From Anaerolineales bacterium (GTDB taxonomy: Bacteria > Chloroflexota > Anaerolineae > Anaerolineales > Villigracilaceae), in the NCBI GenBank assembly GCA_016932715.1, contig JAFGCG010000092.1:1-64000 (forward strand): 64,000 nucleotides of DNA. The letters are read 5' to 3'. Below, piece by piece: positions 3,645 to 54,100 of this stretch (within the stretch, counting starts at the first letter, position 1; each line of letters starts with the position of its first letter). The notes below the pieces were generated by a model. That model searched no databases, was not told where the DNA came from, and saw nothing but the letters and a program-made list of their open reading frames with translations. The position numbers and the translations under genes were made by a program.

Positions 3645-3646
3645 CT

Positions 3647-4526: not shown

Positions 4527-4567
4527 GACGGAAGACGGAGGACCGAGGACGGAAGTCGGATGAGAGA
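4527..4567. repeat. Purine-rich GACGGAAGACGGAGGACCGAGGACGG repeat copy
   Basis: Same unit as 2290-2395. Confidence 0.65.
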
Positions 4568-32790: not shown

Positions 32791-32876
32791 GGTATTGGGC
32801 AAGCCCACACAATTAGCCACTCTCTGCACGACAAAGAAGCTGCGTGATCTTTTGCTTTCATCTCTCTAGTCTTTCC

Positions 32877-34064
32877 ATGCCATCCCGCATTGACAACCAC
32901 ACCCTTAGCCAATTGATCTCCGACCACCCACGCGCCGTGGATGGGGCTTCCCTCTCGCCATCAGACTGGCCGCTCCTGCTTCAGGCGGCGCATCAGGAGG
33001 GGGTCGGTCCACTCTTATACTGGCGACTCTCGAAATCCGGAGAACTCGTATCTCTCCCAACAGAGGCTCGAAATTCCCTGCGGGGCATGTATGCCCGCAC
33101 GTGGGCACAGAACCAGAAAATATTCGAGGAACTGAGTGTAATCACACGGCTGTTCCATGAAAAAGGGATCCCGGTGGTGGTCTTGAAGGGCGCCTGTTTC
33201 GCCCTGACGATCTATCCGGACATTGGCTTGCGTCCGATGGGGGATCTCGATGTATTAGTGCCTGCCTCGAAGTTAGCCGAAGCGGTTGAAATTGCAGAAT
33301 CGCTCGGTTACGCAGATACGATTCCGGAAGCCTCTCCGGGCTTGCATGATCTGCTGAGTCACCATGCCTGCCTGCAAAAATCAGGTTCCGGGTCGATTAC
33401 ATTGGAAATCCACAATAGCCTGGTAGCCGATAAAACCTTTGCCTATGCTGTGCCCGTGGATTGGTTTTGGGAGCAAACCGAACCATTGAATGGTTCATCG
33501 AAAAACAGGTTTGAAAACCTGCTTGTGTTAACTCCCACAGCCCAGTTGCTCTATGCTGCCTCACACGCCATGCTGCAGCACGGCGGCGATAAGGCGCCGT
33601 TGCGCTGGTATTATGACCTGGACCAACTCATTCGGTCCTCTGGCAGCCGCCTGGACTGGGACCTGCTCCTCGAGCAGGCACAAAAATTCGCATGGAGTTC
33701 TGCCTTGAAGGCGGCGCTGGCTCAAACGCAGGATTACTTCGGTACTCCTGTCCCGGATACGGTCCGCATCCGCCTATCCCGGCAAACGGATCACCACGAG
33801 TCCCTGGTGAAGAAGAAACAAAGTCAGCCTGGAACGAAAATCCTACTGGAAAATCAGACATTAGCTTCGCTGAACTGGCACGGAAGAGCCAGGCTGGTTT
33901 TAGCGCTCCTTTTTCCCAGCCCGGCGTATATGCGCTGGCGGTACCGATTGAAGAGTTCGTGGTCACTGCCAGTCTATTATCCGTTCCGCTGGTGGGGAAT
34001 TGCCAGGGACGCACTTGCTACAGTGATCGAGCTCCTGAAGAGACAATCTGTCCCGCGAACCTAA
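32877..34064 (+). CDS. Nucleotidyltransferase family protein (PF14907-like), lasso-cluster associated
   Basis: GIPVVVLKGACFALTIYPDIGLRPMGDLDVLVPAS (GD-LD NTase motif); directly upstream of B1/B2. Confidence 0.8.
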   Translation: MPSRIDNHTLSQLISDHPRAVDGASLSPSDWPLLLQAAHQEGVGPLLYWRLSKSGELVSLPTEARNSLRGMYARTWAQNQKIFEELSVITRLFHEKGIPVVVLKGACFALTIYPDIGLRPMGDLDVLVPASKLAEAVEIAESLGYADTIPEASPGLHDLLSHHACLQKSGSGSITLEIHNSLVADKTFAYAVPVDWFWEQTEPLNGSSKNRFENLLVLTPTAQLLYAASHAMLQHGGDKAPLRWYYDLDQLIRSSGSRLDWDLLLEQAQKFAWSSALKAALAQTQDYFGTPVPDTVRIRLSRQTDHHESLVKKKQSQPGTKILLENQTLASLNWHGRARLVLALLFPSPAYMRWRYRLKSSWSLPVYYPFRWWGIARDALATVIELLKRQSVPRT

Positions 34065-34132: not shown

Positions 34133-34423
34133 ATGACCATCAACCTCGACACCCAGATCAGCATCCCCGAAACCGTTTATACCCAGGAGGTCGGCGAGGA
34201 AACCATCCTGCTCGACACCCAGGGCGGGCGTTATTTCAGCCTGGACCCGGTCGGCACGCGCATGTGGCAGCTCCTCCGGGAACATGGCGTGCTGCGCACG
34301 GTCTATGAAACCATTTTGAAGGAGTACGAAGTAACGCCTGAGCAGCTGGAGACGGATCTCCTGGCTTTAGCCGCGAAAATGATCGAGAAGGGCCTCGCCC
34401 GGATCCAGGACGACGCCGAATGA
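34133..34423 (+). CDS. PqqD-family RiPP recognition element protein (lasso B1)
   Basis: QEVGEETILLDTQGGRYFSLDPVGTRMWQLLREHG...LETDLLALAAKMIEKGLARI. Confidence 0.93.
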   Translation: MTINLDTQISIPETVYTQEVGEETILLDTQGGRYFSLDPVGTRMWQLLREHGVLRTVYETILKEYEVTPEQLETDLLALAAKMIEKGLARIQDDAE

Positions 34424-34863
34424 CTGTAACAACTGTGCTTCACAAGTTGAACAGCGCCTCCCGGCTTTCTGCCGAGGATTGGATGCTGTTCCTGCAAGCC
34501 TGGGTCTGGTTGCTGATTTTCGACATCGGTTTGCGCACACGCCCATTTTCGGAATTACAGGCTTTTGCCGCCCGACTGACTTCCCATCCTATCCCATCAC
34601 CCGAGCAAACGGAGAAACAGCTTCGCATGCTGAAGGTCGCTGTTGCCCGTGCGGGCAGCCATCACCTCTACCCAATGACCTGCCTGCGCCGCTCCCTGGC
34701 ATTGCAAAAAATGCTGGCTCAAAGAGGGGTCGCTGCCGAATTGAAGATTGGTGTGTACAAAGAGCTTGACTTGTTGAACGCCCACGCTTGGGTAGAGTGT
34801 CAGGGTAAACCGATAGGTGAACCGGAGAAGGTCATGGACCACTATGTGATGCTGAGGAGGTAG
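34420..34863 (+). CDS. Lasso peptide B2 transglutaminase-like leader protease
   Basis: MTCLRRSLALQKMLAQRGVAAELKIGVYKE...NAHAWVECQGKPIGEP: Cys and His of the B2 fold; 4-bp overlap with B1. Confidence 0.93.
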   Translation: MTVTTVLHKLNSASRLSAEDWMLFLQAWVWLLIFDIGLRTRPFSELQAFAARLTSHPIPSPEQTEKQLRMLKVAVARAGSHHLYPMTCLRRSLALQKMLAQRGVAAELKIGVYKELDLLNAHAWVECQGKPIGEPEKVMDHYVMLRR

Positions 34864-34937
34864 TATCAAGCAAAATAATTGCAGCAGCAGGTTCTGTAAA
34901 TGTCTGGTGGAATGCTTGAGCAACTTATAAGAGTTTT

Positions 34938-34968
34938 TTTGCACTTGAATTGTGAAAATGTGTACAAT
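34938..34968 (+). promoter_or_regulatory. Putative sigma70-type promoter upstream of precursor (TTGCAC ... TACAAT)
   Basis: TTGCAC - about 18 bp - TACAAT, about 75 bp upstream of the precursor ATG; coordinates approximate. Confidence 0.35.
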
Positions 34969-35040
34969 GCAGTGACTACTGCCTGTGCGCACTGTGACAA
35001 ATAGATTTGATAAAGATAAACCGCACATAGGAGAGACACA

Positions 35041-35196
35041 ATGGAGACCAAAGACATGATTGATAACGAAAAGAAAGTTTATGCCACGCCTGAATTGGTG
35101 GAGCATGGCGATCTGGGGGAAATGACCCAGGGTGGTGCCGGTGGAGATCCTGAGACACTAGGGGGGACAAATCCAGAAGGGAAGATTCTTCCATAA
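35041..35196 (+). CDS. Lasso peptide precursor 1 (51 aa, not in ORF track)
   Basis: METKDMIDNEKKVYATPELVEHGDLGEMTQ|GGAGGDPETLGGTNPEGKILP: leader motif YxxPxLxxxGxxxxxT, T at -2, Gly1, Glu8; AGGAGAG RBS. Confidence 0.9.
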   Translation: METKDMIDNEKKVYATPELVEHGDLGEMTQGGAGGDPETLGGTNPEGKILP

Positions 35197-35371
35197 AAAA
35201 CGTCTTACACTTAACCTATAGCGGATTGCTAACAGATTGATGGCATGCACCAGGAAAACAGGCTGTTTTTGCGCATTCGCAAGAGTCTGTGCCATCAATT
35301 GATCAGATATTCGCTCTAAAGAGCTTCTTTTGTCTTCTGTACATAATTGATATTCTTGCCAAGGAGAAGAA

Positions 35372-37078
35372 TTGTTAGTCAGCTGGGCAAGCTCTTCGCC
35401 AGATCCTGTTTTGTTAGATACTGAATGGTCCAGACCGTTGCAACCAAATGGCTTGAGCCTATGGAGCAGCGGATACGTTGCCAACCAGGATGAATTGATT
35501 AGTCGTTATGGGTTGTCCAAGCAATTATCTACGTCAGACTTACTGTTGTTTTTATTTCGAAAAATGGGAGCAACTGCCAGTGCCAAATTGGTAGCTGGAC
35601 CTTGCTCCTGGATGGTCTGGGATCCTGCACAAAAACTTCTGCTTGTTGTTTCTGATCGTATGGGTCTGGCGCCACTCTACTATGCCCAATTTAAGGGATG
35701 TTTGTGGATTGCAGATGATGAAAATGTTCTACTCACAAAAGCCGGGATTCCGCGTCAGTCCAACCCGTCTGCCGTTGTTGCCCAAATTGATTCCCTCTCA
35801 ATGTTGGAAGACGAAACCATCTACAAGGATATTTATAAACTTACACCGGGTACTGTTTGGACTTGCGGCAGTGACCATTCAATCCGTGAAATTTACTGGC
35901 GAGCTGAATTGCAGCCAGTTTTGCGTTTAAAAGACAACCGGGAATACGCTGAAGCGCTCCGTGCCCTGTTGGTCCAGGTGGTGGATGAGCATGTCCCGCG
36001 CAAACAATTTGCACTGACCCTGAGCAGTGGTATGGATAGCAGCAGTATTGCTGGAGCGCTTCGCCTAGCCCGTCCCAGCGATCGTATTCCTAGCATAGGC
36101 CAAATTATGCCAGCACTTCCGGGTAGTAACGAGCAAGAGTGGATTCTGGCGACCAGTCAAAAACTCAACTTGGATTTGACAGAACTGCAGGTCGATCAAT
36201 TTTGGCCATTGAAACCGTCTGGCCCTTGTGAAAATCTCCCTCGAATAACCGCCTATCAGGAAATATGGGGTATCACCTGCCTGGAGGCGCGGAAACAAGG
36301 CGCTCGCATTCTTATTACCGGAGCCATGGGGGATCAATGTTTCGGAAGTTCTATTTGTAGTTATTCTGATCTATTGCTCAACTCGCGTTGGATCGAACTC
36401 GGTCGACAAATTCGGCATGAATGGGTTCAGGGGTATTACATCCGCCCTCCGGATTGGAAAACACCTTTGCGCCGGTCGCTGCGGCCGCTAAAACAATATA
36501 TTGATAATCTGCTTTTACCCCTGAAACAGATGAAGCCTGTTTCCTGGCTGCACCCATCCCAACAAGCTGTTTACGAGCAAGTAAGATACGCCAACCGCAG
36601 GCCATTCAAAATTGGATTGCCCGCCAGGGTAATGCGCTGGTGGCAGATTATAGATCCAGGAAGTCTCCAAAATATCCTGCAATTCCATAAGTTCGCGCAA
36701 AGGCTTGGTATCGAGATGCGCCATCCTCTCTGGGATCATCGCATTCTGGAATTTGTCTTGCAACTTCCAGCTGAGCAAACCTATCAGTCTGGTACTCAAA
36801 AAATCGTCTTGCGCAATGCCATGCGCGGTATATTGCCAGATAAGGTTGTTGAGTTAAGAAAAAAAATAGTGCCATTTGATCTGTTCCATCGCGGTCTACG
36901 TGAACGCAGTGTCGAGCAGGCAATGGATTTGATGACCAATATGAGGCTAGCCGATATGGGATATGTTTTACCCTCCGAGTTGCAAGCCGCCTATCAGCGT
37001 TATCTCAGGGGAGAAACCAACCATCAGAATTTCTTTTATACATTGATGCTTGAATCCCAGGTGCGTGCATGGTATTAA
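35372..37078 (+). CDS. Lasso cyclase 1 (asparagine-synthetase-like, C protein)
   Basis: ALTLSSGMDSSSIAGAL (ATP-PPase), RHPLWDHRILEFVLQLPAEQTYQSGTQKIVLRNAMRGILPDKVVELRKK; degenerate glutaminase half; TTG start. Confidence 0.9.
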   Translation: MLVSWASSSPDPVLLDTEWSRPLQPNGLSLWSSGYVANQDELISRYGLSKQLSTSDLLLFLFRKMGATASAKLVAGPCSWMVWDPAQKLLLVVSDRMGLAPLYYAQFKGCLWIADDENVLLTKAGIPRQSNPSAVVAQIDSLSMLEDETIYKDIYKLTPGTVWTCGSDHSIREIYWRAELQPVLRLKDNREYAEALRALLVQVVDEHVPRKQFALTLSSGMDSSSIAGALRLARPSDRIPSIGQIMPALPGSNEQEWILATSQKLNLDLTELQVDQFWPLKPSGPCENLPRITAYQEIWGITCLEARKQGARILITGAMGDQCFGSSICSYSDLLLNSRWIELGRQIRHEWVQGYYIRPPDWKTPLRRSLRPLKQYIDNLLLPLKQMKPVSWLHPSQQAVYEQVRYANRRPFKIGLPARVMRWWQIIDPGSLQNILQFHKFAQRLGIEMRHPLWDHRILEFVLQLPAEQTYQSGTQKIVLRNAMRGILPDKVVELRKKIVPFDLFHRGLRERSVEQAMDLMTNMRLADMGYVLPSELQAAYQRYLRGETNHQNFFYTLMLESQVRAWY

Positions 37079-38046
37079 GTCTTTCTGATTCATTTTACAA
37101 CTACCGGGTTTATGGTCTGACCATAACCAGCAACCTGCCGCTCGACCCCTGGCTTCCGCTTTCGGAGGAGCCAGCCAGTCTAGCTATTGAAGGTTGGTTG
37201 GCCAGTGAGAACCTGCCTGTTCTCCCGCTTCGTTCCGCTCGTCATACGGAGCAATCCGGAGCACCTCATTCATCTTTCTATCACAATAAAACCTTGCGTT
37301 TAAATATACCAAGAGTGGGTCATTTTCTGATTGCTCAGGATAAAATCCTGGTTCAATTCTCAGCGGATGCAAATTTGGCTTCAGTCTGTGCAAATTTGCT
37401 ATCAACGGCATTATCATTATGGCTTGAGCAGCATAGAACTAGGGTAATCCATGCCTCCTGCCTGGTATATCACGGGAAAGCGGCCGCTTTCATGGCGAAT
37501 AGCACAACTGGCAAATCAACTCTGGCGGCAGCCTTTTTACAGTCTGGTGCCGAATTGCTCAGTGACGATGTTGTTCCAATTGTAGAAACTGCAAATGGTT
37601 TTTTCGCCAGTCCAGGGTATCCAACTGTGCGCTTGTCTGAAGAGCAGATCGAGTATTTCCTGGGTACGCAGGCCAATCTCGCGCGTTGGTTTCCTAAATG
37701 GAGAAAAGCACTGATCCCAATTGGGGAAAACGGCTGGGGCGGCTTTTGTAACCTCTCTCAAAAAATTCAGCGCCTATATGTTTTGAATCGGACACTCAAC
37801 GATCCTGGTGGTCAAGTGCGATTCGAGCCGCTTTCGGATGTCGATTCCGTGCTTTCCTTGATCCGATTTTCCTTTCTTATTCGGGACACATGGGAGATGG
37901 AAATTGCAGCGGAAAGAATGGCGTTTTTTGCACGCTTAGTGGCACAAACAGGTGTAACTCGCTTGACCTACTCATCGGGATACGAACACCTGACTGAGGT
38001 TATTCGGCAGGTTTTTGGGGATATGGATAAAAACGAGGTTAAATGA
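37069..38046 (+). CDS. HPr kinase-like protein (lasso tailoring kinase homolog) 1
   Basis: AAFMANSTTGKSTLAAAFLQSGAELLSDDVVPI (P-loop + DD). Confidence 0.85.
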   Translation: MVLSLSDSFYNYRVYGLTITSNLPLDPWLPLSEEPASLAIEGWLASENLPVLPLRSARHTEQSGAPHSSFYHNKTLRLNIPRVGHFLIAQDKILVQFSADANLASVCANLLSTALSLWLEQHRTRVIHASCLVYHGKAAAFMANSTTGKSTLAAAFLQSGAELLSDDVVPIVETANGFFASPGYPTVRLSEEQIEYFLGTQANLARWFPKWRKALIPIGENGWGGFCNLSQKIQRLYVLNRTLNDPGGQVRFEPLSDVDSVLSLIRFSFLIRDTWEMEIAAERMAFFARLVAQTGVTRLTYSSGYEHLTEVIRQVFGDMDKNEVK

Positions 38047-38178: not shown

Positions 38179-41100
38179 ATGAAAACAAAATTCAATTTCA
38201 GGAAGTGGCTGCGCAGCCGGAATGGTCTGATCAGCATGATCAGTGCACTGCTGGTGTTGATCGTGGTGGCAGTTATTTTCGGCGGCGGCCTGAGTGGATT
38301 GACAGGTACCGCGGGAGTGCCGGCGGAACTGCCGCCGGGCGCGAATTGCTTGCCTACCTGTGATGTCACCGATGGGCGTATGTTTACGATCGCGAGCGAT
38401 GGGCTTGTAACATTGGCTGGACAGTCCATTTTTATTAAAATTGCTGTTCCTGAATCGGTCGCCTCGTTTGATATCGGCATTTTTGATGGCGATACATCCG
38501 GGATTTGGGATTTAAACTCCGGTCCATTGACCTATACACTATATGCCGACCCTACAGCTGCTCAGGTGGGGACAGAACAAGTCGTTCAGTGGCTGGGGGA
38601 TAGTATGGCAGATAATGACTGGACCAATTTCACCATTGATCAAGACCCTCGGGCACAGGCACCCAGCGGGGATTATTTCTACTATCTGCGTGTGGACCTT
38701 CCCAATGCTGCCACAGCAACAAAGATCTTTAGCAGCTTCAAAGTTCGCTCAACTTCGCCGATCGAATTGGCTACCAACCAGTCTTTCGGTTATATGGCAC
38801 CTCTCAGTTCGACGAATCAAGGTATCATTTATCCTTCTTATCCGGACCTCACCCAGACAACGTTTGATGGAACCTGGGATATGTACCTGAACGTGCCTGT
38901 GTCCCAGTCATCTTTTGTGATTTGGGATGGCGACTTTGATTATGGGAGCTATGACTGTAGTGTGAATGACACCGACGATCCAGACACACCGAACGACACA
39001 CACCCTGCCTGGGCCGCACCCAATTCTGACGTTCTTGAAGGAGTTGCTGTCTCAACCAATCCTTGTAAAGATTCAGCAGGTGCCAAAATCACAGCAGCGA
39101 ATGGTCAGACCACGACCACTGGTCAGCCAAGTGATGACAATGTATACGCAGCATACCGAAGGGACGCACCAGTTACTTATGATGTCATCGATCCGAATGG
39201 AAATGTCTATCACAATGCTAATCCATCTGGAAACACAGAGTGGGAACAATTCCTGATCTCGTCGGATCACTCTGTTGCAGCCGATCACTACACAGACGCC
39301 CTCCTTCCTGCCGGGACGTACCACGTTCGCATTACCGGGCTGGATCTGTCAAATTTGAACGCCTGGCATCTGATCTATGACGCTGTCTGCGTTTACGAAG
39401 ACGGCACTCCCTGTGTGCCAGTGCTGCGTCCCTACAAGATCGGGGATACGGTCTGGGCGGACACCAATGGCAATGGTGTTCAGGACGCGGGCGAGGCTGG
39501 CATTGCAGGCGTGACGGTTACGCTGCTCGACTCTTTCGGGAACCCTGTGCCGAATGGCACAGCGACCACCGATGCCAGCGGGAATTACTTCTTCAAAGTG
39601 GAGGCTGGGGCCTACACTGTCCAGGTCGACGCCGCGAACTTCGAGGCGGAGGGCGTCCTGACAGGATATGCTCCGACAACCTCGGGCGGGAACTCCCAAA
39701 CCAACACGGTGACCACCGACAATGTTCTCACGTATGACTTTGGCTATAATGTTGCCCCGGCTTCGCTGGGTGATTTCGTCTGGAATGACCTGAATGGTAA
39801 CGGTATCCAGGAGGACGGCGAAGGGGGACTCGCGGGCGTCACGGTCAACCTGCTCGGCAGCGACGGAACGACTGTGGCTGCCACCACGACCACCGACGCC
39901 GCGGGCAGCTACAGCTTCACCGAGCTTCTGCCTGGCACATACTATGTCCAGGTTGTAGCACCGGCGGGACAGGTCTTCACGACAGCCGATGCAGGCAGCG
40001 ATGATGCCAAAGACAGCGATGTCGATGCCACCGGAAAGACCGCCGCGATCTCGTTGAGCGCCGGCGAGACAAATACCTCCGTGGACGCGGGCTTGCTAGA
40101 CGCTTTAGCCTGTCCCGCCAACCTGGTCCTGAACCCGAGCTTCGAAGAGAACAAAGGCTCACCGCCCAAGTCTTGGAAGTACGGCACCGCTGGACCTGTC
40201 GGTGTGCCGGTTGTGGATGGCTTGAATGCTGGTTACATCTCCGGCTCGGGTACAATGTATCAGGCAGTGAATGTGACCACTGGCAACAGCTACACGTTGA
40301 CCTTCTACTCAGGCTCGCACAAACCGTCGAAACAGACTGTCAAGCTCCAGTATTTCAACAAAAGAGGCAAAGGCATCGGGACAGCGGCGACACACATCAT
40401 CACGAGTGACTTGGAGGACAGCGGCTTTGGCGGACCATACACCCTGATGCTCGATCCGGCGCCATCCGACGCGACCTCCCTGAGGATCATGGTCAGCGCC
40501 AACAGGTTCGACTATGCCAAGGTGGATATGCTCTGCCTGCAGCCGACTACCCCGCCGGCCACTGCCTCGATTGGCGACCTTGTCTGGAAAGACACGAACA
40601 ACAACGGCGTTCAGGATGATGGCGAACCCGGCATGGCAGATGTCACCGTCAACCTGCTCGGCAGCGACGGAAAGACTGTGGCTGCCAGCACAACCACCGA
40701 CGCCGCGGGCAATTACAGTTTCACCGAGCTTCTGCCTGGCACGTACTACGTCCAGGTCGTGGCGCCGGCAGAGACATCCTTCACGAAAGCCAACGCGGGC
40801 GGCGACGATGCCAGGGATAGCGATATCGACCCCGCCAGCGGAAAGACCGCTGCCATTAGCCTGAAGGTTGGTGAGGCAAATAATACGGTGGACGCGGGTC
40901 TCAAAGAGTCGCTGAGCCTGTCCTGTCCCGCCAACCTGGTCCTGAACCCGAGCTTCGAAGAGAACACCGGCTCCCCTCCGAGGTCCTGGACGAACGGCAC
41001 CGCCGGACCCGTCGGTGTACCGGTCGTGGATGGCAAGAACGCCGGCTACATCACCGGCTCGAAGACCATGTATCAAAGTGTGGATGTAACGGCCGGCAGC

Positions 41101-41817
41101 AGCTACACCCTGACCTTCTACTCCGGGTCGCATGTTCCATCGATCCAGACGGTGAAGATGCAATACTTCGCAGGCGACTCAGCCATCGGGGAGCCGGCGA
41201 CGCACACCATCACGGACGACCTGGAAATCGTCGGCTTCGGTGGACCCTACAGCCTCACGCTCGGTCCGGCGCCATCCGATGCAACTTCCTTGCGGATTAT
41301 GGTCAGCGCCAACAACAAGGACTATGGCAAGGTCGATAGTTTGTGTCTGGAAGCGACGGAGCCTGTGGAGCCGCCTCCGCCTCCGCCCATGTGCACGACT
41401 GGCAACACCTACAAGGTAGAGACGACGAATAATCCATTCTATAGCGTGAAGTTTAACTTCGCCTCTGGCACGGAAGTCAAGGATGGCGGCTACGACATCT
41501 TCAAGTACACGCTGCCGGCGGATGTGGTCGCGGCGATGACCAGCATGCAGGTCGAAGTCAAGGCAGCGACAGACTCCCGCACCTACAACCTGACCTGTGA
41601 TTTCACCAGCCCGGAAGGCTGCGGCTCGCCTGTGGGCGACGATGCTTACGCGGTCTCGTTCGACGGCGCTGTCGACAACGGCGATGGCACATACACGCTG
41701 AAGTTCAAAGTGTATGTCTATGGTGAGCACGGCCTGAGTCATGTCTCCTTCAGCCTGCCTGAAGGGCAGACAGCCGGCGGCCTGACCGGGAGTTACACCA
41801 CGGAGGGCTGCGAGTAA
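38179..41817 (+). CDS. Large surface protein with SdrD B-like repeats and DUF642-like CPANLVLNPSFEEN modules
   Basis: N-terminal TM; IGDTVWADTNGNGVQDAGEAGIAGVTVTLL type repeats x3; duplicated NPSFEE module x2. Confidence 0.85.
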   Translation: MKTKFNFRKWLRSRNGLISMISALLVLIVVAVIFGGGLSGLTGTAGVPAELPPGANCLPTCDVTDGRMFTIASDGLVTLAGQSIFIKIAVPESVASFDIGIFDGDTSGIWDLNSGPLTYTLYADPTAAQVGTEQVVQWLGDSMADNDWTNFTIDQDPRAQAPSGDYFYYLRVDLPNAATATKIFSSFKVRSTSPIELATNQSFGYMAPLSSTNQGIIYPSYPDLTQTTFDGTWDMYLNVPVSQSSFVIWDGDFDYGSYDCSVNDTDDPDTPNDTHPAWAAPNSDVLEGVAVSTNPCKDSAGAKITAANGQTTTTGQPSDDNVYAAYRRDAPVTYDVIDPNGNVYHNANPSGNTEWEQFLISSDHSVAADHYTDALLPAGTYHVRITGLDLSNLNAWHLIYDAVCVYEDGTPCVPVLRPYKIGDTVWADTNGNGVQDAGEAGIAGVTVTLLDSFGNPVPNGTATTDASGNYFFKVEAGAYTVQVDAANFEAEGVLTGYAPTTSGGNSQTNTVTTDNVLTYDFGYNVAPASLGDFVWNDLNGNGIQEDGEGGLAGVTVNLLGSDGTTVAATTTTDAAGSYSFTELLPGTYYVQVVAPAGQVFTTADAGSDDAKDSDVDATGKTAAISLSAGETNTSVDAGLLDALACPANLVLNPSFEENKGSPPKSWKYGTAGPVGVPVVDGLNAGYISGSGTMYQAVNVTTGNSYTLTFYSGSHKPSKQTVKLQYFNKRGKGIGTAATHIITSDLEDSGFGGPYTLMLDPAPSDATSLRIMVSANRFDYAKVDMLCLQPTTPPATASIGDLVWKDTNNNGVQDDGEPGMADVTVNLLGSDGKTVAASTTTDAAGNYSFTELLPGTYYVQVVAPAETSFTKANAGGDDARDSDIDPASGKTAAISLKVGEANNTVDAGLKESLSLSCPANLVLNPSFEENTGSPPRSWTNGTAGPVGVPVVDGKNAGYITGSKTMYQSVDVTAGSSYTLTFYSGSHVPSIQTVKMQYFAGDSAIGEPATHTITDDLEIVGFGGPYSLTLGPAPSDATSLRIMVSANNKDYGKVDSLCLEATEPVEPPPPPPMCTTGNTYKVETTNNPFYSVKFNFASGTEVKDGGYDIFKYTLPADVVAAMTSMQVEVKAATDSRTYNLTCDFTSPEGCGSPVGDDAYAVSFDGAVDNGDGTYTLKFKVYVYGEHGLSHVSFSLPEGQTAGGLTGSYTTEGCE

Positions 41818-42754: not shown

Positions 42755-42848
42755 ACCGCGAGGGCGATGACCCGGTGACTTCAGGCCTCTAGCCTTGAGA
42801 GGGCGGCACCGGTGATCAAGTCACGAAACCTGCCGCGGTTCTGTTTTT
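42755..42848 (+). ncRNA. Structured 5' leader of the giant protease gene (class not recognised)
   Basis: P1 ACCGCG-AGG/CCU-GC-CGCGGU closing a multi-stem region; CCGGTG/CACCGG and mutually exclusive GTGACTT/AAGTCAC; U-tract follows. Confidence 0.5.
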
Positions 42849-42880
42849 TCAAATTTTTGTTGTTGCATGTCGAGGCTAAC

Positions 42881-45800
42881 ATGAAAGATCATTCCCGTTC
42901 CATTTTTCATTTTGTTCTGTTATTCATTTTCATCTTTTGCCAGGTGACCGTTCAGCCTGCATCTGCGGCCGTCACCGCTCGTTCAGAGAGCGAAACGGTT
43001 TCTCACGGCGCGCAAAGCGTCCCATCGCGACTCTCGGAAGCCAGGCCGGGACCCGCGCCGGCTGAGAAAGGTTCGGTGATTGTCCCCGCGGAGAGCTTCA
43101 AATCGACTGACTCGGCTCTGCAAATCGCAGCGGATTTGCAGTTGCTGGCATACACCCTGCCATCCTACCCCGTTTATAGTGAACAAAACAATTTAAGCGT
43201 CGAGCCATTGGTTGCTTACAACCTGGTGGTTGATTCCAATGTCCTGGCGCCCTCTTCGTATGGTCCTTCTGCGGCAACCTTCGGTGCCAGGTACTGTAAC
43301 ACCGGCTCCAGCGATCTGACGGACGTTTGGGCGTATATTGGCAACTACGATTCGGATTATAACGGTACGCTCGGAGACACTGTTCCCGGCTCCTTCCCCA
43401 GACGAAGTGAGACGGGACCGGCCTACGACCCGGCTGCATTTGCGTCCGCGTATGGTGCAACGAGCACGAATCCACTGGTCGGTTCCACTCTCACCGATTA
43501 TGGCGCAACGAGTACACCGTTTGCTCTGCACCTGGCATCCGGGACGACCCCACCCGAAGTGGACGCCTCGCGCTACATTGGCACCCTGGCCCCCGGGGAA
43601 TGTAAAACGGAATACTGGATGATTACGTATCCGCGCAAAGCGTTCAACGGCGGCAGCTGGATAGATGTCACCGGCGGTGTGAAACCGGAGGATGACCTCT
43701 GGCTGCCCTATTTCTTCTGGGGCACCTCTACCAGCGGTGCGACCACCGCGACCTCCTATCGCTGGAATGCTGTTACCATGCGCAACGAGATTTCAGCCGC
43801 TGCCAATAAGATCTGGCCAAATGGCGACAATAAGGTTCCTGACCAATATGTGGAAGCGATCGCACAGCTGGTAGGCTGGGATACGCTGACTCCCAGCGGC
43901 ACGGGCAGTGTCTATCCGGGCGATACGGTCGTCAGCCAGGGCATCTGGTACGACCTCGGCAACGTGGGCGCCGGCTTTGATAATAATGGAGACTTCGTCC
44001 CTGATCGCAATGTCTGGCTTCAACCCATTGGCGATGCGTCCGGATATGATCCCGGTTGTTTTCGCCTGGTGCGGACGTACGGCCTGGTCATTGTCAAACT
44101 GAATAATGGTACAGAGCAGCTCATTCCGTTTGTGGATCAGATGTATTTCGAGAACATTCCGGAAAATAATATTGGCGTTGTCGGTCTGGTCTACTATGAA
44201 TATGCAGCCCTGGACGGGATCTGTACTGCAAATTTGACGCCTTACCAGGAAGCGGCATCGGGTTATGATAATGAAAAATTCAACGCCGATTACGGCGCCG
44301 GCATCCCTCCCCTGCAGAGCCGGGAAAGCAACATGACCCTGGATAAGACAGGTCCGAACTCGATTGGTCTCAACGATACCATCGATTACTCGTTGACCTT
44401 TACCCTGCCGGATATCGATGACGATCCTGCCAATACAACCACGGTCATCATCGGCCAACCCTCTTATGGCATGCCGTTGACATATTCCGATGCCGTGCCG
44501 GTGGGGCTGCAGTATGTCGCCAATTCCGCCAGTACCACAGTGGTCATGTCTGCCAACTATGCGGCAGGGGATATCCCTGCCACATTATGGCATTCCAAAG
44601 ATGGCGGCGCGACCTGGATCCTGGGCGACCCCGGTAATTACACAAGCACCTCCACCAGTGACCAGTTGATTCTGCAATGGAGATTGGAGGATGGCGTCAC
44701 CAGTCCCGCCAGTGGAGCCGCGTACACCGGGACGGTCCAATTCCAGGCAGTTGTTCCGGGTACATATCCTTCGGTCAGGGTGGAGAACGAAGCCTGCCTG
44801 AAGATCGGACAAGGTCCGGGCTTTACGTGCGATGAGCATACAACAGTTGTAACAGGCAACTCGTCCATTACCGGGCTCGTTTGGCGGGATGATGCGATCT
44901 CGAGCGGCGTGCTGGGTAACGCCATCCAGGATGGGACCGAGGCGGGTATTCCCTCTGTGACAGTTAATCTATATTGGGATAACAATGGAGATGGTGATTA
45001 TACCGATGCAGGAGATTTCCTGTACGCGACGACCACCTCCATGAATTACGCCATTGTAGACGGCTATGTCGATGTGGATGGCGGCGGGATCAGTTCGAGC
45101 GATGATGCGACGCTGTCGGGGGTCAGCATTATCGACGGCGGGCTCGACCTCAATGGCGATGGTGTCGTCAATACAAACGATGATGGGTTTTTCGGCGGCT
45201 ATACGGTCTATGACGGGCGCCTGGATGTCAGCCGGAATGGTACCGTCGGTACGGAAGATGACGGCACGCTGGCAGGCGTCTATAACTTTGGCAGCCTGCC
45301 CGCCACAACCAGCATCTCCGCGCGTTATATCGTTGTAGTGGATCAAGGGGATAGCGATATTCCCACTGGCTATGGTCCTACGACCCGCACTTCCTATGCA
45401 GGTATAAATCTTGCTGCCGGTACGGCTTACGGGGATGCTGCGGATGCCTCGGAGCCGAGTGATTTTGGCTTTGGTCCGGCGCTTGACATCGATAAATATA
45501 TTTCGCCCACATCCTATATCGTAGGCGATACGATGGCGTATACCATCAACGTTACCAACCTTCTGCCCGGCGCCGGGGATGGTACCTCAACCTGTTCCTA
45601 CCCGGTCTGGGCCTCGCGCGCTATCAACGATAACTCGGAAGTTCCAAATGGGTCTTCGAATAATAATGGCCGCTGGCATAACACAGGCAATAATTTTGGC
45701 AGCGGGGCGGAGCCGGTTTATATTACCGGTCGTCCGGATGGATTGCGCGCCTATACCGATATGGCCAACAGCAATAACTACGTGGGCCTGACGGGCTATA

Positions 45801-48800
45801 ACCTCGGTGCGCAGGCTGGAAACATCACTTCCGTTAAGTTCGTCGTGTATGCCTATGAGTATGAAGATACTCAGGGCGATGCGTTGATCGTAGATCTCTA
45901 CTACAACAACAGCCTGCTCGCTCCTGCCGATACATATTCCTATGATGGTACATATTTTAGTCAGCCTGTGGGTTCGCTGTATGTGATCGAAGCCGATATC
46001 ACATCCCTGCGAACCTGGACCTGGAGTGATTTTTCGAGCGAATTGACGGAAATGCGCCTGACCGGGGATAAGGATGGCGGCACGCTTGGAGACTACCAGG
46101 TGGACGCGGCCGGTTTTATCATCACGACCGATGGTACCTGCGGCGGCGCCTCCCAGACTCTCAACCCCGTCCCCCTGACTGATACGTTCGATGACAGTTA
46201 TTTTGATTTTATTTCTGCCGACCCGCCTGTTTCATCTTCAGGCACGGGAACTCTCACCTGGAATAATGTCGGTCCGCTTTACCCCGGGCAGACACGCACG
46301 ATCACCGTGTATATGCGTGCCCAGGCGACCGGAACCGCGCCAGGCACAACCAATACCGCCACCAGCACCAACGCCAGGTTCTCGAACGGTTTGCCCGCCA
46401 ATTCACCCGTGTCGGATACTGCCGCGGTCACGATTTCCGCCAATACGAACACACGTTCGTTAACCGGTGTCGTGTTCGATGACAACAATACCAATGGCTG
46501 GCAGGGTTCCCTGTGGACTGCCGGTGGCTCTGGTTACGATACCGGTGATGTGGGGATTCAATATATCCCGGTGGATCTTTATGGTTGTGTTGACACAGTT
46601 ACAGGTGCACTGATCACGAATGAAGGCAACAACCAAAGTTGTTCGGTGGCAGGCGGCACATGGCGCCTGTTGCGAAGTACCTCCACCTCCCCGGATGGTG
46701 CTTACACTTTCGGTAACCTGGCGCAGGGTTATTACCGGGTTCATGTGCAATCCTCGTTGATCGTTGGCACGCTGACGGCAGATGTGAACCAGTCTGCAGC
46801 CGGTGTGTGCAGCGGCGTCTCCTGTGACAGCTGGTCCAATGGTGAGTACGACTATCTCAATGCGGCAACCTTCGTTGGTGATGTGGATAATTTCACTGAC
46901 GTGACGCGCGTCAATTTTGGCTACGACGTTCCAACCGGCGCTTATGACATCGGCGACCTGGTCTTCTTCGACTGGGATGGTGATGGAGTCCAGGACGCGG
47001 AAGACGAGCCGATCCCGAACGTGACCATGCGCCTGCTGGCTGCCGACGGCACGTACCTCGACGACACTGATACGAGCGGCATTTATGGCTTTGCAGATCG
47101 TATCCCGGCGTACTATACGGTCGAAGTTGACACCAGCACACTGCCATCCGGATTGGTGCAGACGGAAGACCCGGATTCCACGATGGATAACAGGAGCAGT
47201 TTCTCGCTGACAGCCGACAGGCTTGATGTTGACTTTGGCTACCAACCCTATGGCTCCGGAACGATTGGCGACACTGTTTTCAAAGATATTAATGGAAATG
47301 GCACCCAGGATGGCACCGGCGAGACCGGGATCGCCGGGGTTACCGTCCAATTGCAGGTGGATTGGGATAACAATGGTACGTATGTGACGATCGCTACGGA
47401 CACCACCGATGCGAATGGTCACTATCTGTTCACCGGCCTGCCTCAGGGAACCTACCGTGTCTCGATCGATCTAAGCTCCAATGCTGCTGTGATCCCGGAT
47501 GATAGCTTTGACAACAATTATTACCCCAGCAATGGCACGGATACGGGGACCGTGGTCTACATGGATAAGACCCTGGCGACCTCCACCTCAAGCGACCTCA
47601 CAGCCGATTTCGGCTTCGCGCCGCCGGCATCCATTGGCGATACAGTCTATCAGGATGTGAATCGCGACGGCACACAGGATACGGGCGAGCCGGGCATCAA
47701 CGGGGTCACTGTTACCCTCTATACCTTTACCGATTCCAATGGCAACGGCCGCTACGATCCGAGCGAAAGCGGAACCCTGGTCTCCACTGGACAGACTGCA
47801 GTGACTGCGACTGTCGGTGGGAAAGATGGCATCTATCAATTCGACGGACTGGAACCGGGATACTACGTTGTTCAGGTCACGCCTCCGGCGGGTTCCGTTT
47901 TGACGGGCGATCCCAACACCGACGGTTTCTCCTGCGATGACCTCAGCGAGCCGCCGGGCGCCGGAGAGCCAAGCGTTAATCTGTGCGACAACCGGGATGG
48001 CATGCGCCTGTATAACGGGACCAGCTACACGGGCGCGGACTTCGGCTATTACCTGTCCGGCTCATTCGGTGACAGGCTCTGGATCGACGTGGACAATGAT
48101 GGCATCTCGGATGCTGGGGAGCGCGGCATCTCCAATGTCACTGTCAATTTGTATTCCTATACGGATAACAATAACAACAACATATTCGACGCCGGCGATG
48201 TGCTGGGCGCGCTGACCTCGTCGGTTGTGACGAACGAGAACGGGAATTACATGTTCACAAATGTCCCGGACGGCAAGTATGTTGTTCGCGTGGATGTAGC
48301 CGATCCCGATATCGCAACTCTCATCACGAACGGGTTGGCGCAGACGTATGACCCGGACGGGGTGAATGACAACGAAACCAGTGTCACCCTCTCCGCTGGC
48401 GCGGTGACCCATACCGGCGGCTGTACCACAACCCCGAATGGCTGTGACGGCGAGTCCGACGCCCTCTACCTGGACGCGGATTTTGGTTATGACTACAGCG
48501 GTGACGGAGCGCTGAGCGGCACGATTTGTCTGGAAACCCTCGACAACGGAATTTGCGGCACCGGCGCCACCGGCGTGGAATCAACGGAGAGCGCCTACGA
48601 TACTGTAACGGTATACCTCTATCGCTGGATAGATGCTGATAGTGATGGCGATATCGATCCGGGCGAAACGACCCAGTTTGGTGCAACGCAGACGGGTCCG
48701 AATGGCGATTACTCCTTCACGGACCTGCCGGATGGTTACTACTACATTGTGGCGATCGGCGCACCCCAATCCGGGCTTGCCCTGAATACCGACGCATCAG

Positions 48801-51800
48801 ACCTGCCGGAAGTGGGCGATGACACACTGCTGTACGAAGATGTTGTCCCCACCACGAACATGGATGGCACCGTTCTTTCCGTCTATCAGATCGTCGAAGT
48901 GCCTGCAAGTGACCCGGTCGTCGAGAATGTCGACTTTGCTTTCAGTCTCGACGGCGCCTTCGACTTTGGTGATTTACCTGCCAGTTATGCGACAACGTTG
49001 GAGGGTACGCCCGATGGACCTCGACACGAACAGCCTGCTGGCGGCTATACACTTTATTTTGGTACAAGCCCTGACGTTGAAGCCAATGGGAATCCCACCC
49101 TGGCTGCCAGCGGTGATGGCGCGGATGAGGATGGCGTCCTTCTCCCCAGTGGTGGGCTGAACACCAGCTGGGCAGACGCCGACGGCGGCACGCTCGAGTT
49201 CAATGTTGTCGGTTCCGGCTGGCTGGTCGGCTGGATCGACCTGAACCAGGACGGTGATTTCGCCGACGCGAACGAAATGGTGGTGAACCAGTCGGTCAGC
49301 ACTGGCACACTGAGTGTGAATATCGCTTCCCTGTCGAACCTGGCTGATGGTTCGTACTACGCCCGCTTCCGCCTGTTCACCGCCCAGCCGACTATTCCGG
49401 TACTGGCGTACTCTGGCGCGACCACAGATGGCGAAGTGGAGGATTATCGCTTTGATATCAACGGGGGCGCGCCCACACCCGTTACGTTGTCCTACTTCTA
49501 TTCGAGGCGAAAAGGGAGTACTGTCAGCTTTGAATGGTCTACCGCTACCGAGACGGGCAATGTTGGATTCAACTTATACGTCCAGGGAAAAGATGGATTG
49601 GTTCAGCTGAACGGCGAGTTGATCCCATCGAAAGTGATCGACTCGCTCGACCGCCAGGACTATTCCTTCAGCATCGATGTGGCTGGCAGCCAGTTCTACA
49701 TCGAAGATGTCAGCGTGCTGGGCGAGACCGAACTGCATGGTCCGTTCCAGCTGGGACGCATACATGGCAGCCGGCAGGCAGCAGACAGGATCGTTCAAAA
49801 GACGATTTCAGCAGAGCATATCGAGAAGGTCACTACACGTTCCGCGGCCCTGCGGAAGAATTTGAAGGTCCCGGCAGCCGCCCGGAAAGCGCCGGCCTGG
49901 CTCTGGTTCCAGAACGAACTGCAATTGAATACTACTTTCAATCTGAAAGTGAATGAGACAGGTATCTACCGGGTTACCTATGAAACGTTGAAGGCTGCCG
50001 GCCTTGACCTGAATGGTGTCCCGATCACGAAAGTGACCATAACCAATCGCGGCAGGCAGATTCCGGTCTTTGTGGCGGGCAAGAGCAAATTTGGCCCGGG
50101 CAGCTTCATCGAATTCTATGGCGAGGCGCTGGATACGATCTACACCGATACCAATATTTATACGCTGCAAGTTAGCAGGACGCGTGCCAGCCGGGTCAAA
50201 GAAGTAAATGCCAACCCTGCGAAGAAGGTAATTCCCTCGACTTCTTACATCCATACCTTGACGGTGAACAATCAGCGCGCCTATGCCAATTATGCTCCCG
50301 GTGAGGATGCCTGGTACGACACCCGCATGCTGGTATACACCACTCCCAAGACCTGGAAAATCCCGTTCCAGGTAAACGGGTTGGCAAACGCCTCGGCTCC
50401 TGCGGCGCTCGACCTGGTCGTCTGGGGTGTGACAGATTGGCCGCAAAGCCCCGATCATCATCTGATCGTGAGTGTCAATGGAACGACCGTCGCGGATCAG
50501 ACCTTCAATGGGCTGGTGGAGAAGAATATCGTAGTCACTCTTCCGGCTGGTGTGCTGCATGAAGGGGAGAATCTGCTAGAGCTGAGCCTGCCCGGAGATA
50601 CGGGTGTGAAATACGATATGGTCAATCTCGACAAGTTCAGTTTGACCTATCAGCGTTCCCTGCAGGCTGTCGATGGGCGGCTAACTTTCGAGGCTGCGGG
50701 CAAAGCCCTCAGGGTAACCAATCTGCCTGGCAAAAACGTGGTTGTATACCGCATGAGCGCAGATGGAACTCTCGTGCGCCTGAAGAAGGTCCAGGTACAG
50801 GCATCGGGCAAGACCTATACAGCCACATTTGCCGGAACCGGGAATAAGGTCGCGAAGTATTTCGTCACGACGACGGACGCGCTGTACAGTCCCGGTGTCG
50901 AGGCGACGCGCCTGGACGCGGACCTGGACCGGCCCGCCCAATACCTGATCATCTCTCACCCTGATTTCATCGACGGGTTACAGCCGCTCGTGCGGGCGCG
51001 TCAGGCGCAGGGATTGTCCGTCAGCGTGGTGGATGTGACCGATGTGTATGCACAATATACAGGCGGTATCTTTGATCCACAGGCTATCAGGGATTACATT
51101 GCCTTTGCAGCCAGGAGGCTTGGCACCGAATACGTCCTGCTGGTCGGCGGCGACACCTATGATTATCGCAACTACCTGGGTCGCGGCACCCTTAGCTTCA
51201 TACCCTCGCTGTACATCACAACAGGGGATGTGGCAAAATTTGTCCCGGTCGATCCACTCTATGCCGATGTGAACAATGACAATGTGCCCGACCTGGCAAT
51301 CGGTCGTTTCCCGGTCCGGACTACGGCGGAACTCGAGTTAATGGTCAAGAAGACATTGGCGTATGCAGGCAAGGATTATGGCCGGACCGCCTTGTTCGTC
51401 TCGGATGAATATGACGGGATTGTGTCCTACAAATATATTAATACCAACCTGGCTGCAGGCTTGCCGGCAGACTGGTCCGTCAAAAGTATCCACCTGGATG
51501 ACGTGGATGTGTCAACTGCCCGGTCGCAGATCGTCTCGAGCATGAACGATGGGGTCGCGCTGGTGACCTTCACCGGTCACTCCAGCTCGACGGTCTGGAC
51601 GTTCAGAGACCTGTTCAATATCAAAAACGCCAAGGCACTGACAAATCATGGCAGACCGTTTGTCGTTGTGCAGTGGGGCTGCTGGAACACCTATTACGTG
51701 GATCCGGTCAACAACTACCTGGTCCAGGGCTTCCTGTTTTCGGGAGATCAGGGCGCGGCTTCCGTGCTGGGCGCTTCCACGCTCACCGATTCCAAATCGG

Positions 51801-51970
51801 AGGAACTGCTCGGAGATCTGCTGACCCCGCGGATGGTCACGCCGGGCACTTCTATCGGTTTTGCTTTGCGGGATGCCAAGATCGAACTGGCGCAGACTCA
51901 CCCCGAGCTGCTGGATGTCCTGCTTGGATGGTCGCTCATGGGTGACCCGGCATTAAGTGTGACACCCTAG
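42881..51970 (+). CDS. Giant secreted multidomain protein: SdrD-like repeats, dockerin-like insert, GEVED-like domain, C-terminal C25 gingipain-like peptidase
   Basis: Signal peptide MKDHSRSIFHFVLLFIFIFCQVTVQPASAA; many (I/V)GDxV(F/Y)xDxNxDGxQDxGE repeats; DLPASYATTLE...GPRHE GEVED-like; VALVTFTGHSSSTVW / VVQWGCWNTYY and terminal LMGDPALSVTP typical of C25. Confidence 0.88.
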   Translation: MKDHSRSIFHFVLLFIFIFCQVTVQPASAAVTARSESETVSHGAQSVPSRLSEARPGPAPAEKGSVIVPAESFKSTDSALQIAADLQLLAYTLPSYPVYSEQNNLSVEPLVAYNLVVDSNVLAPSSYGPSAATFGARYCNTGSSDLTDVWAYIGNYDSDYNGTLGDTVPGSFPRRSETGPAYDPAAFASAYGATSTNPLVGSTLTDYGATSTPFALHLASGTTPPEVDASRYIGTLAPGECKTEYWMITYPRKAFNGGSWIDVTGGVKPEDDLWLPYFFWGTSTSGATTATSYRWNAVTMRNEISAAANKIWPNGDNKVPDQYVEAIAQLVGWDTLTPSGTGSVYPGDTVVSQGIWYDLGNVGAGFDNNGDFVPDRNVWLQPIGDASGYDPGCFRLVRTYGLVIVKLNNGTEQLIPFVDQMYFENIPENNIGVVGLVYYEYAALDGICTANLTPYQEAASGYDNEKFNADYGAGIPPLQSRESNMTLDKTGPNSIGLNDTIDYSLTFTLPDIDDDPANTTTVIIGQPSYGMPLTYSDAVPVGLQYVANSASTTVVMSANYAAGDIPATLWHSKDGGATWILGDPGNYTSTSTSDQLILQWRLEDGVTSPASGAAYTGTVQFQAVVPGTYPSVRVENEACLKIGQGPGFTCDEHTTVVTGNSSITGLVWRDDAISSGVLGNAIQDGTEAGIPSVTVNLYWDNNGDGDYTDAGDFLYATTTSMNYAIVDGYVDVDGGGISSSDDATLSGVSIIDGGLDLNGDGVVNTNDDGFFGGYTVYDGRLDVSRNGTVGTEDDGTLAGVYNFGSLPATTSISARYIVVVDQGDSDIPTGYGPTTRTSYAGINLAAGTAYGDAADASEPSDFGFGPALDIDKYISPTSYIVGDTMAYTINVTNLLPGAGDGTSTCSYPVWASRAINDNSEVPNGSSNNNGRWHNTGNNFGSGAEPVYITGRPDGLRAYTDMANSNNYVGLTGYNLGAQAGNITSVKFVVYAYEYEDTQGDALIVDLYYNNSLLAPADTYSYDGTYFSQPVGSLYVIEADITSLRTWTWSDFSSELTEMRLTGDKDGGTLGDYQVDAAGFIITTDGTCGGASQTLNPVPLTDTFDDSYFDFISADPPVSSSGTGTLTWNNVGPLYPGQTRTITVYMRAQATGTAPGTTNTATSTNARFSNGLPANSPVSDTAAVTISANTNTRSLTGVVFDDNNTNGWQGSLWTAGGSGYDTGDVGIQYIPVDLYGCVDTVTGALITNEGNNQSCSVAGGTWRLLRSTSTSPDGAYTFGNLAQGYYRVHVQSSLIVGTLTADVNQSAAGVCSGVSCDSWSNGEYDYLNAATFVGDVDNFTDVTRVNFGYDVPTGAYDIGDLVFFDWDGDGVQDAEDEPIPNVTMRLLAADGTYLDDTDTSGIYGFADRIPAYYTVEVDTSTLPSGLVQTEDPDSTMDNRSSFSLTADRLDVDFGYQPYGSGTIGDTVFKDINGNGTQDGTGETGIAGVTVQLQVDWDNNGTYVTIATDTTDANGHYLFTGLPQGTYRVSIDLSSNAAVIPDDSFDNNYYPSNGTDTGTVVYMDKTLATSTSSDLTADFGFAPPASIGDTVYQDVNRDGTQDTGEPGINGVTVTLYTFTDSNGNGRYDPSESGTLVSTGQTAVTATVGGKDGIYQFDGLEPGYYVVQVTPPAGSVLTGDPNTDGFSCDDLSEPPGAGEPSVNLCDNRDGMRLYNGTSYTGADFGYYLSGSFGDRLWIDVDNDGISDAGERGISNVTVNLYSYTDNNNNNIFDAGDVLGALTSSVVTNENGNYMFTNVPDGKYVVRVDVADPDIATLITNGLAQTYDPDGVNDNETSVTLSAGAVTHTGGCTTTPNGCDGESDALYLDADFGYDYSGDGALSGTICLETLDNGICGTGATGVESTESAYDTVTVYLYRWIDADSDGDIDPGETTQFGATQTGPNGDYSFTDLPDGYYYIVAIGAPQSGLALNTDASDLPEVGDDTLLYEDVVPTTNMDGTVLSVYQIVEVPASDPVVENVDFAFSLDGAFDFGDLPASYATTLEGTPDGPRHEQPAGGYTLYFGTSPDVEANGNPTLAASGDGADEDGVLLPSGGLNTSWADADGGTLEFNVVGSGWLVGWIDLNQDGDFADANEMVVNQSVSTGTLSVNIASLSNLADGSYYARFRLFTAQPTIPVLAYSGATTDGEVEDYRFDINGGAPTPVTLSYFYSRRKGSTVSFEWSTATETGNVGFNLYVQGKDGLVQLNGELIPSKVIDSLDRQDYSFSIDVAGSQFYIEDVSVLGETELHGPFQLGRIHGSRQAADRIVQKTISAEHIEKVTTRSAALRKNLKVPAAARKAPAWLWFQNELQLNTTFNLKVNETGIYRVTYETLKAAGLDLNGVPITKVTITNRGRQIPVFVAGKSKFGPGSFIEFYGEALDTIYTDTNIYTLQVSRTRASRVKEVNANPAKKVIPSTSYIHTLTVNNQRAYANYAPGEDAWYDTRMLVYTTPKTWKIPFQVNGLANASAPAALDLVVWGVTDWPQSPDHHLIVSVNGTTVADQTFNGLVEKNIVVTLPAGVLHEGENLLELSLPGDTGVKYDMVNLDKFSLTYQRSLQAVDGRLTFEAAGKALRVTNLPGKNVVVYRMSADGTLVRLKKVQVQASGKTYTATFAGTGNKVAKYFVTTTDALYSPGVEATRLDADLDRPAQYLIISHPDFIDGLQPLVRARQAQGLSVSVVDVTDVYAQYTGGIFDPQAIRDYIAFAARRLGTEYVLLVGGDTYDYRNYLGRGTLSFIPSLYITTGDVAKFVPVDPLYADVNNDNVPDLAIGRFPVRTTAELELMVKKTLAYAGKDYGRTALFVSDEYDGIVSYKYINTNLAAGLPADWSVKSIHLDDVDVSTARSQIVSSMNDGVALVTFTGHSSSTVWTFRDLFNIKNAKALTNHGRPFVVVQWGCWNTYYVDPVNNYLVQGFLFSGDQGAASVLGASTLTDSKSEELLGDLLTPRMVTPGTSIGFALRDAKIELAQTHPELLDVLLGWSLMGDPALSVTP

Positions 51971-52015: not shown

Positions 52016-53869
52016 TTGAGCGGTTTCGCGGTTGCTTTCGAACGTTCCAACATACCGGTTGATCCCGGTGTGTTGGAACGCGTCGCGCCTCGACTGGCAC
52101 ATCGTGGCCCGGATGGGTACGATGAGTACCGGGCAGGGCAGATTGCCATGGCTCACTGGCACTTTTGGACTACGCCCGAAGAAGTCGATGAAAGGCAGCC
52201 GCTACAATTGGCAGGGATGCCTTTCCGGCTCGTGTTCGATGGCAGGCTGGATAACCGCTCCGAGTTGTTGAGCCGTCTCCATATCGACCCGGCGCAGGGC
52301 ATTTCTATCTCGGACGCGGCACTGGTGCTGCATGCCTTTGGCTGTTGGGGTGAGCTTTGTTTCGAGCATTTCATCGGTGAGTTTGCACTGGTGATTTTCG
52401 ACGAGCAAAGCAACCGTTTGATCTGTGCCCGGGATGCCCTGGGGGACCGAACCTTGTTCTATGCCTCCCGGGGACCCCGCCTCATCATCGCCTCCGAACC
52501 CTGGGCGGTTGCCGGTGCTGACGGCTCGGAACCCCAAATCAATGATCGCGCGGTCGCTCACTATTTTGCGTTGAAAGCCACCGAAGATGGGCAAACCTTG
52601 TTCACGGGCGTTTACGAATTGCTCCCAGCCCATGTGATGGTCGTCGACTCGTCCGGCGAGCACAAGCGGCGTTACTGGAGGCCGGACCCATCCAAAAAAG
52701 TGCGCTACAAAACGAAGGAAGAATACGGCGAGCATTTCCGGTCGCTGCTCGAAGAGAGTGTCCGCTGTCGCCTGCGTGCCAGGACGCCCGTCGGCGTGTT
52801 GATGAGCGGCGGGCTGGATTCGACGTCGGTAGCCTGCCTGGCGGCGCGCATGATCGCTGCGGAACCGCTGACTACGATCTCGTATGTCTTCGATGAACTG
52901 GCAGAGTGTGACGAACGGGTTTATATAAACGCGGTGAGGGACCAATACGGTCTTCGCTCGATCCAGATCCCATGTGATGATGCCTGGCCCTACAAAGACT
53001 GGCAAGCCTGGCCGCACAATCCAAATTATCCGGAGGGGAATCCTTATCGCCCCCTGAAAGAGCGTGCTTATGATCGGGCGCATACAGAAGGTCTGCGCGT
53101 CCTGCTGACCGGTGGGTTTGGCGATCATCTCTACAGTGGGGCAGATGACTGGCTGGCAGATTTGATCAGCGAACGAAAATTGCGGGAAGCCGTTCGGGAA
53201 GCAGCCATCCACCTCCGCTATGCTGGGTTGCGTTACACAATTGAACAGGGATCTCTCCAGCGCATTGCCAGGCGTTTCCTTAACACCATCCCTGGTGGAA
53301 GATCCTTGCACCGCAGGCAAATTGCGTCCGCCTGGTTGACGCCTGCCGCAGCCGGATGTCTGTCCATGGGCATTGCCGGAGTGGATGCCGCGTTCGAAAG
53401 CCGCGCCAATCTGATCGGAGTGTTGGCTGCCAGGGGCAGCTCAGGCGAAATCTATCATTCCAACCGGCATACGCTGGAACTGCGCCATCCCTACCGGGAT
53501 CGCCGGCTGGTCGAGTATGCGCTGGGACTTCCGGCTTACTTGCTCTATTATCGCGGCTTGTATAAGCGCGTGCTTCGCGTGTCAATGCGAGACATCCTGC
53601 CAGAGTCTATCCGTACGCGACCTCGACCGACGTCTTTGGTGTCATTGTTTTCCCGGGGAATCGAGCGGGAAAAAGCATTTCTTCAAAGCTGCTATCAAAC
53701 ACCTGATGCAGTCTGGCGTATATTTGTGCGCCCTGACTGGCTCTTGAAGCGTTGGGATGTTCATGTCACGCCCGAGACAGATGGACCGCAGGCTTTGGTG
53801 CCCTGGTTGTGTGCTTCCTATGCTTTATGGTATCGATCGCATCGAGTTCTGAACCAATTAGCTCTTTAA
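52016..53869 (+). CDS. Lasso cyclase 2 (asparagine-synthetase-like)
   Basis: MSGFAVAFER...LAHRGPDGYDEY (Ser instead of the Cys2 nucleophile), VLMSGGLDSTSVACLAARM; TTG start. Confidence 0.88.
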   Translation: MSGFAVAFERSNIPVDPGVLERVAPRLAHRGPDGYDEYRAGQIAMAHWHFWTTPEEVDERQPLQLAGMPFRLVFDGRLDNRSELLSRLHIDPAQGISISDAALVLHAFGCWGELCFEHFIGEFALVIFDEQSNRLICARDALGDRTLFYASRGPRLIIASEPWAVAGADGSEPQINDRAVAHYFALKATEDGQTLFTGVYELLPAHVMVVDSSGEHKRRYWRPDPSKKVRYKTKEEYGEHFRSLLEESVRCRLRARTPVGVLMSGGLDSTSVACLAARMIAAEPLTTISYVFDELAECDERVYINAVRDQYGLRSIQIPCDDAWPYKDWQAWPHNPNYPEGNPYRPLKERAYDRAHTEGLRVLLTGGFGDHLYSGADDWLADLISERKLREAVREAAIHLRYAGLRYTIEQGSLQRIARRFLNTIPGGRSLHRRQIASAWLTPAAAGCLSMGIAGVDAAFESRANLIGVLAARGSSGEIYHSNRHTLELRHPYRDRRLVEYALGLPAYLLYYRGLYKRVLRVSMRDILPESIRTRPRPTSLVSLFSRGIEREKAFLQSCYQTPDAVWRIFVRPDWLLKRWDVHVTPETDGPQALVPWLCASYALWYRSHRVLNQLAL

Positions 53870-53879
53870 TGGAGATAAT

Positions 53880-54092: not shown

Positions 54093-54100
54093 TTGCGTGA

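Follow-up and report, generated by a model that had tools for sequence, protein, structure and literature searches.

Several lasso peptide systems have been described that resemble the locus analysed here. The bsf cluster of Bradymonas sediminis (BsfA/B1/B2/C/D/K/N) combines discrete B1 and B2 proteins with a cyclase, an HPr-kinase-like protein K and a nucleotidyltransferase N, and its precursor carries the YxxPxL motif at positions −17 to −12 and gives an 8-residue ring from Gly1 (PMC10368454). The paeninodin and pseudomycoidin clusters likewise contain a kinase gene and separate B1 and B2, with a nucleotidyltransferase in pseudomycoidin; N genes in lasso clusters have been associated with sugar attachment to phosphates on lasso peptides (PMC8498205). 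The locus in our window, that is, the whole 64,000-nucleotide stretch of DNA that was analysed, is of this already known lasso peptide type, with a mildly unusual architecture. Its interest lies in the arrangement of two cyclase modules and in a mismatch between the kinase-like proteins and known phosphorylation sites, and not in the precursor of the first module, A1, alone.

The first module lies on the forward strand in the order nucleotidyltransferase-like gene, B1, B2, A1, cyclase C1 and HPr-kinase-like K1. The first of these, a probable tailoring gene N (32844–34064), encodes a 406-residue NTP_transf_5 nucleotidyltransferase-like protein (PF14907, E=1.1e-53) of a family that recurs beside lasso loci in related genomes, and it probably belongs to the lasso cluster. 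B1 (34133–34423, 96 residues) is a PqqD-family leader-recognition protein, or RRE (PF05402, E=1.9e-15). Its match to NF033536 (E=1.7e-11) is below the strict cut-off; it also matches the solved lasso RRE TbiB1 (5v1u) over residues 9–87 (E=1.4e-9), and TfuB1 more weakly. B2 (34420–34863, 147 residues) is a leader peptidase of the transglutaminase-like Cys protease type (PF13471, E=1.1e-20), scoring 81 bits against NF033537 (cut-off 33), with Cys88 and His122 invariant across 8 aligned B2 sequences. The original prediction had set the cluster at 34133–38046; the gene order B1-B2-precursor-cyclase-kinase is as it described, but the probable member at 32844–34064 had been left out. A dedicated ABC transporter is a common, not universal, component of lasso loci. 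None was recognised among those window genes that were scanned against Pfam, whereas the bsf cluster has one (PMC10368454).

A1 itself is a 51-codon ORF at 35041–35196 (forward strand), 177 bases from the end of B2 and 175 bases from the cyclase start, with AGGAGAG, a strong ribosome-binding site, ahead of its ATG. Reading the DNA bore out the sequence originally given for it, a leader of residues 1–30 (METKDMIDNEKKVYATPELVEHGDLGEMTQ) followed by a core of 21 residues (GGAGGDPETLGGTNPEGKILP). All residues of the proposed YxxPxLxxxGxxxxxT leader motif were also found, with Tyr at −17, Pro at −14, Leu at −12, Gly at −8 and Thr at −2. The YxxPxL motif thus spans −17 to −12, the same register as in A2, the precursor of the second module, and both have Thr(−2); this is the register reported for lasso precursors, although BsfA itself has Ile(−2), as well as a phosphorylated Ser3 in place of the Ala3 of A1 (PMC10368454). 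The suggested check against the lasso leader family NF033521 gave 21.4 bits, above the cut-off of 19, while NF033528 (lasso_cyano) matched only the leader part and fell below its cut-off. When the whole 4.94-Mb assembly was searched with NF033521, only two stretches exceeded the cut-off, A1 and 53949–54008; both adjoin lasso-type cyclases and both are within the 64-kb window. A strict pattern (leader motif, T-x, an allowed residue 1 and Asp or Glu at core position 7–9), applied to all six frames of the window, likewise gave two matches, A1 and the ORF at 53880–54092, against an average of 0.017 in 60 codon-block shuffles. The ORF at 35041–35196 is, on these sequence features, almost certainly a lasso peptide precursor: the family matches, leader register and genome-wide specificity support this assignment with a Gly1 core, as do a homologue in a related genome and the enrichment of Asp/Glu at core position 8, both described below. 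Between A1 and C1 there is also an inverted repeat, ATTGATGGCA...TGCCATCAAT, at 35235–35305. It was considered as an attenuator, a reading that was dropped because the fold of 35190–35375 was not clearly better than that of shuffles (z −1.1) and no terminator pattern was found.

The first module is most closely matched in genome G137 (L065/L107/L114), where B1, B2, precursor, C1 and K1 follow in the same order, the cyclase has the same short N terminus and an SdrD_B protein is adjacent. Its core, GGTWGNPEDF..., has the same skeleton, GG--G[ND]PE, as that of A1, GGAGGDPETL...; the G137 core differs in having Thr3 and Trp4 and in carrying an aromatic residue in its tail, and the cyclases are 33% identical. 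Gly-rich cores also occur at L115 (GTGGGDTD) and L079 (GGAAGATD). In A1, Gly1 is able to cyclise and Glu8 falls within the acceptor range 7–9. We compared 20 candidate precursors lying beside lasso-type genes, which are not phylogenetically independent of one another: Thr(−2) is present in 18 and Gly1 in 14, while Asp or Glu stands at core position 8 in 12 of the 20 (shuffle mean 2.0; none of 20,000 shuffles reached 12) and at positions 7–9 in 16 (shuffle mean 5.6). Since these precursors were picked by their leader motif and not by the acceptor, this enrichment is not circular, and it makes Gly1–Glu8 the best ring prediction for A1, with Glu8 most likely the acceptor. The 8-residue ring and 13-residue tail of the original prediction were correctly counted, and the G137 skeleton and the Asp/Glu8 enrichment both lend it support.

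How A1 might be matured can be outlined from these assignments. B1 would bind the YxxPxL leader, B2 would recognise Thr(−2) and cleave behind Gln(−1), and C1 would adenylate one of the core carboxylates (Glu8 is the likeliest to provide it) and join it to the Gly1 amine. The predicted product has a macrolactam ring of 8 residues, a tail of 13 residues and a calculated monoisotopic mass of 1917.943 Da. We regard it as highly probable that B1, B2 and C1 convert A1 to this Gly1–Glu8 macrolactam, the same B1/B2 pair probably also serving A2 and the second cyclase, C2. Whether the macrolactam would be threaded is a separate matter. The remark that no aromatic residue is available to plug the ring holds for A1, whose core lacks Phe, Tyr, Trp, His and Arg altogether, and lasso lock residues are mostly bulky aromatics (review PMC13352647). 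With no bulky lock in its Gly-rich tail, the peptide made by B1, B2 and C1 could thus be branched-cyclic and unthreaded, or its thread could slip back out of the ring. Four other candidates with an allowed ring acceptor (L058b, L077a, L077b and L079) also have no Phe, Trp, Tyr or His after residue 9. Against this, Lys18, Ile19 or Leu20 might act as a lock in A1, and the homologous G137 core has a Phe in its tail, so that an unthreaded product seems rather unlikely, if still a serious prospect.

A more radical departure is suggested by a recently described Bacillota RiPP family that has enzymes common to paeninodin-type clusters but no cyclase (PMC13381572). The existence of these linear peptides, together with the kinase-like and nucleotidyltransferase-like genes flanking the cluster, raises the thought that A1 ends up as a linear peptide that is phosphorylated or glycosylated. 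Yet A1 is followed by the cyclase gene C1, which keeps the invariant SxGxDS ATP-site residues in the alignment, Asp/Glu is enriched at the ring positions, and the A1 core, which ends in Pro and has Ala3, possesses neither of the phosphorylation sites reported for lasso peptides, a C-terminal Ser and Ser/Thr3. A linear end product is therefore extremely unlikely.

C1 (35372–37078, forward strand), which begins with TTG, is a 568-residue cyclase of the Asn-synthase/macrolactam synthetase type (PF00733, E=9.1e-32) with a shortened N-terminal GATase-like domain. C2 (52016–53869, forward strand) has 617 residues and a full-length N-terminal domain. The best NCBIfam match of both is the lasso cyclase family NF033535, though at 187 and 370 bits, respectively, they remain below its strict cut-off of 525. 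The modelled fold of C1 (pLDDT 78.6) matches the TsnB9 hydroxyamidotransferase, beta-lactam synthetases and AsnB/asparagine synthetases. C1 and C2 are only 26% identical and fall on separate tree branches, which rules out a recent duplication as their origin. Asn-synthase-like genes on contig C59 were also considered; the genome-wide leader search gave no lasso precursor beside them. About 60 N-terminal residues of the GATase-like domain that are present in other aligned cyclases are absent from C1 and from its G137 counterpart. This short N terminus, together with the P-loop of K1 (ANSTTGKS), whose first Gly is lost, might be taken as a sign that the first module is decaying and no longer turns A1 into a lasso peptide. 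A frameshift was ruled out, however: all frames are open, and no other frame upstream encodes the missing piece of C1. The G137 cyclase has the same short N terminus and forms a clade with C1 (support 100/99), and the first P-loop Gly is also absent from the K1 proteins of G137, L037, L080, L081 and L079. Because both features occur in relatives, they are lineage traits, and decay of the module is very unlikely.

The second module (52016–54946), absent from the original prediction, is 17 kb from the first and consists of C2, the precursor A2 and the kinase-like K2, separated by gaps of 10 and 8 bases. A2 (53880–54092, forward strand) is 70 residues long and exceeds the NF033521 cut-off of 19 with 24.1 bits in the genome search and 23.2 in the protein scan. 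Its core, GGSPGAGDSGVGDPRYPLGFHGDFLPPPEF (GGSPGAGD...), has Ser3 and a C-terminal Phe, with a predicted Gly1–Asp8 ring. Neither a B1 nor a B2 was found alongside this module. The whole assembly, which is 94.7% complete, contains a single B2 match and a single stand-alone PqqD protein, counts that refer to the assembly as such; two further PqqD matches lie inside larger ORFs on contig C88. Given these counts, the simplest reading is that one B1/B2 pair probably serves both divergent cyclases: it would also free the A2 core, and C2 would close the Gly1–Asp8 ring. A comparable arrangement is seen at locus L056 (positions 1–5271) of genome G026, where two cyclase-type genes and two candidate precursors surround one B1/B2 pair and the genome again has a single B2 match; the contig ends within one of the cyclase genes, and the precursor adjoining that gene (core TCNVKTFGLYD...) has no Asp or Glu at positions 7–9.

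Both modules end in an HPr-kinase-like protein: K1 (37069–38046, forward strand, 325 residues; PF07475, E=6e-5, below its cut-off) and K2 (54101–54946, forward strand, 281 residues; TIGR04352, E=6e-5, below its cut-off). K2 has an intact P-loop, GESGQGKS; in BsfK the glycine equivalent to the one absent from K1 mattered for solubility (PMC10368454). Known lasso kinases target either the C-terminal Ser, as those of paeninodin and pseudomycoidin do (PMC8498205), or core residue 3 (PMC10368454). The paeninodin-type C-terminal Ser is absent here, the last residue being Pro in A1 and Phe in A2. The BsfA-type combination of Ser/Thr3 with an intact kinase motif is found in A2 and K2 but not in A1 and K1. 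With its Ser3, A2 is a candidate substrate of K2, whose action on it would fit a BsfK-like role. A1, on the other hand, offers K1 neither of the known sites, and K1 may therefore have a role different from phosphorylation of Ser3 or of a C-terminal Ser. When the kinases were inspected by eye, no consistent link appeared between P-loop type and core residue 3. The full combination, in which one B1/B2 pair supplies two divergent cyclases that each have a separate precursor and kinase-like partner, the N-terminal domain of C1 is cut down and K1 acts elsewhere than on the known lasso phosphorylation sites, is a picture that we advance tentatively, at slightly short of an even chance.

Sharing of B1 and B2, if true, would provide a natural two-substrate, two-cyclase system for studying the division between leader recognition and core specificity. 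The mismatch of kinase-like proteins and known phosphorylation sites can be put to a direct test. The locus would also add Gly-rich lasso peptides from a Chloroflexota genome of the Anaerolineales type; among the open-access papers searched, only one, on Ktedonobacteria, names Anaerolineae together with lasso peptides. A lasso B2 over the cut-off is present in 57 of 299 genomes of the class. In the family to which the window belongs, G148 is the only other genome with such a B2, and none of the three other listed congeners has one. The B2 alignment, used as a query, retrieved ten relatives in the named genome collection, where C1 alone as a pattern query retrieved none. The lasso genes of G148 are located near genes that, judged by protein starts, resemble the window's Wzz-type, LysM-type and DUF4012 genes.

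As to the wider surroundings, a polysaccharide locus at 6386–31277, with a flippase, a Wzy-type ligase, several glycosyltransferases, a sugar transferase and a Wzz-type protein, is directly upstream of the lasso genes. Large surface-type proteins with SdrD_B repeats are encoded beside the lasso genes at 38179–41817 and 42812–51970. Such proteins are also found beside the lasso loci L037, L040, L065, L080, L081, L115, L117, L118 and L121, and are common in the class anyway. The ORF at 42812–51970, which lies between the two lasso modules, encodes 3052 residues and combines SdrD_B repeats with a GEVED domain and, at the C terminus, a peptidase C25 domain of the gingipain type.
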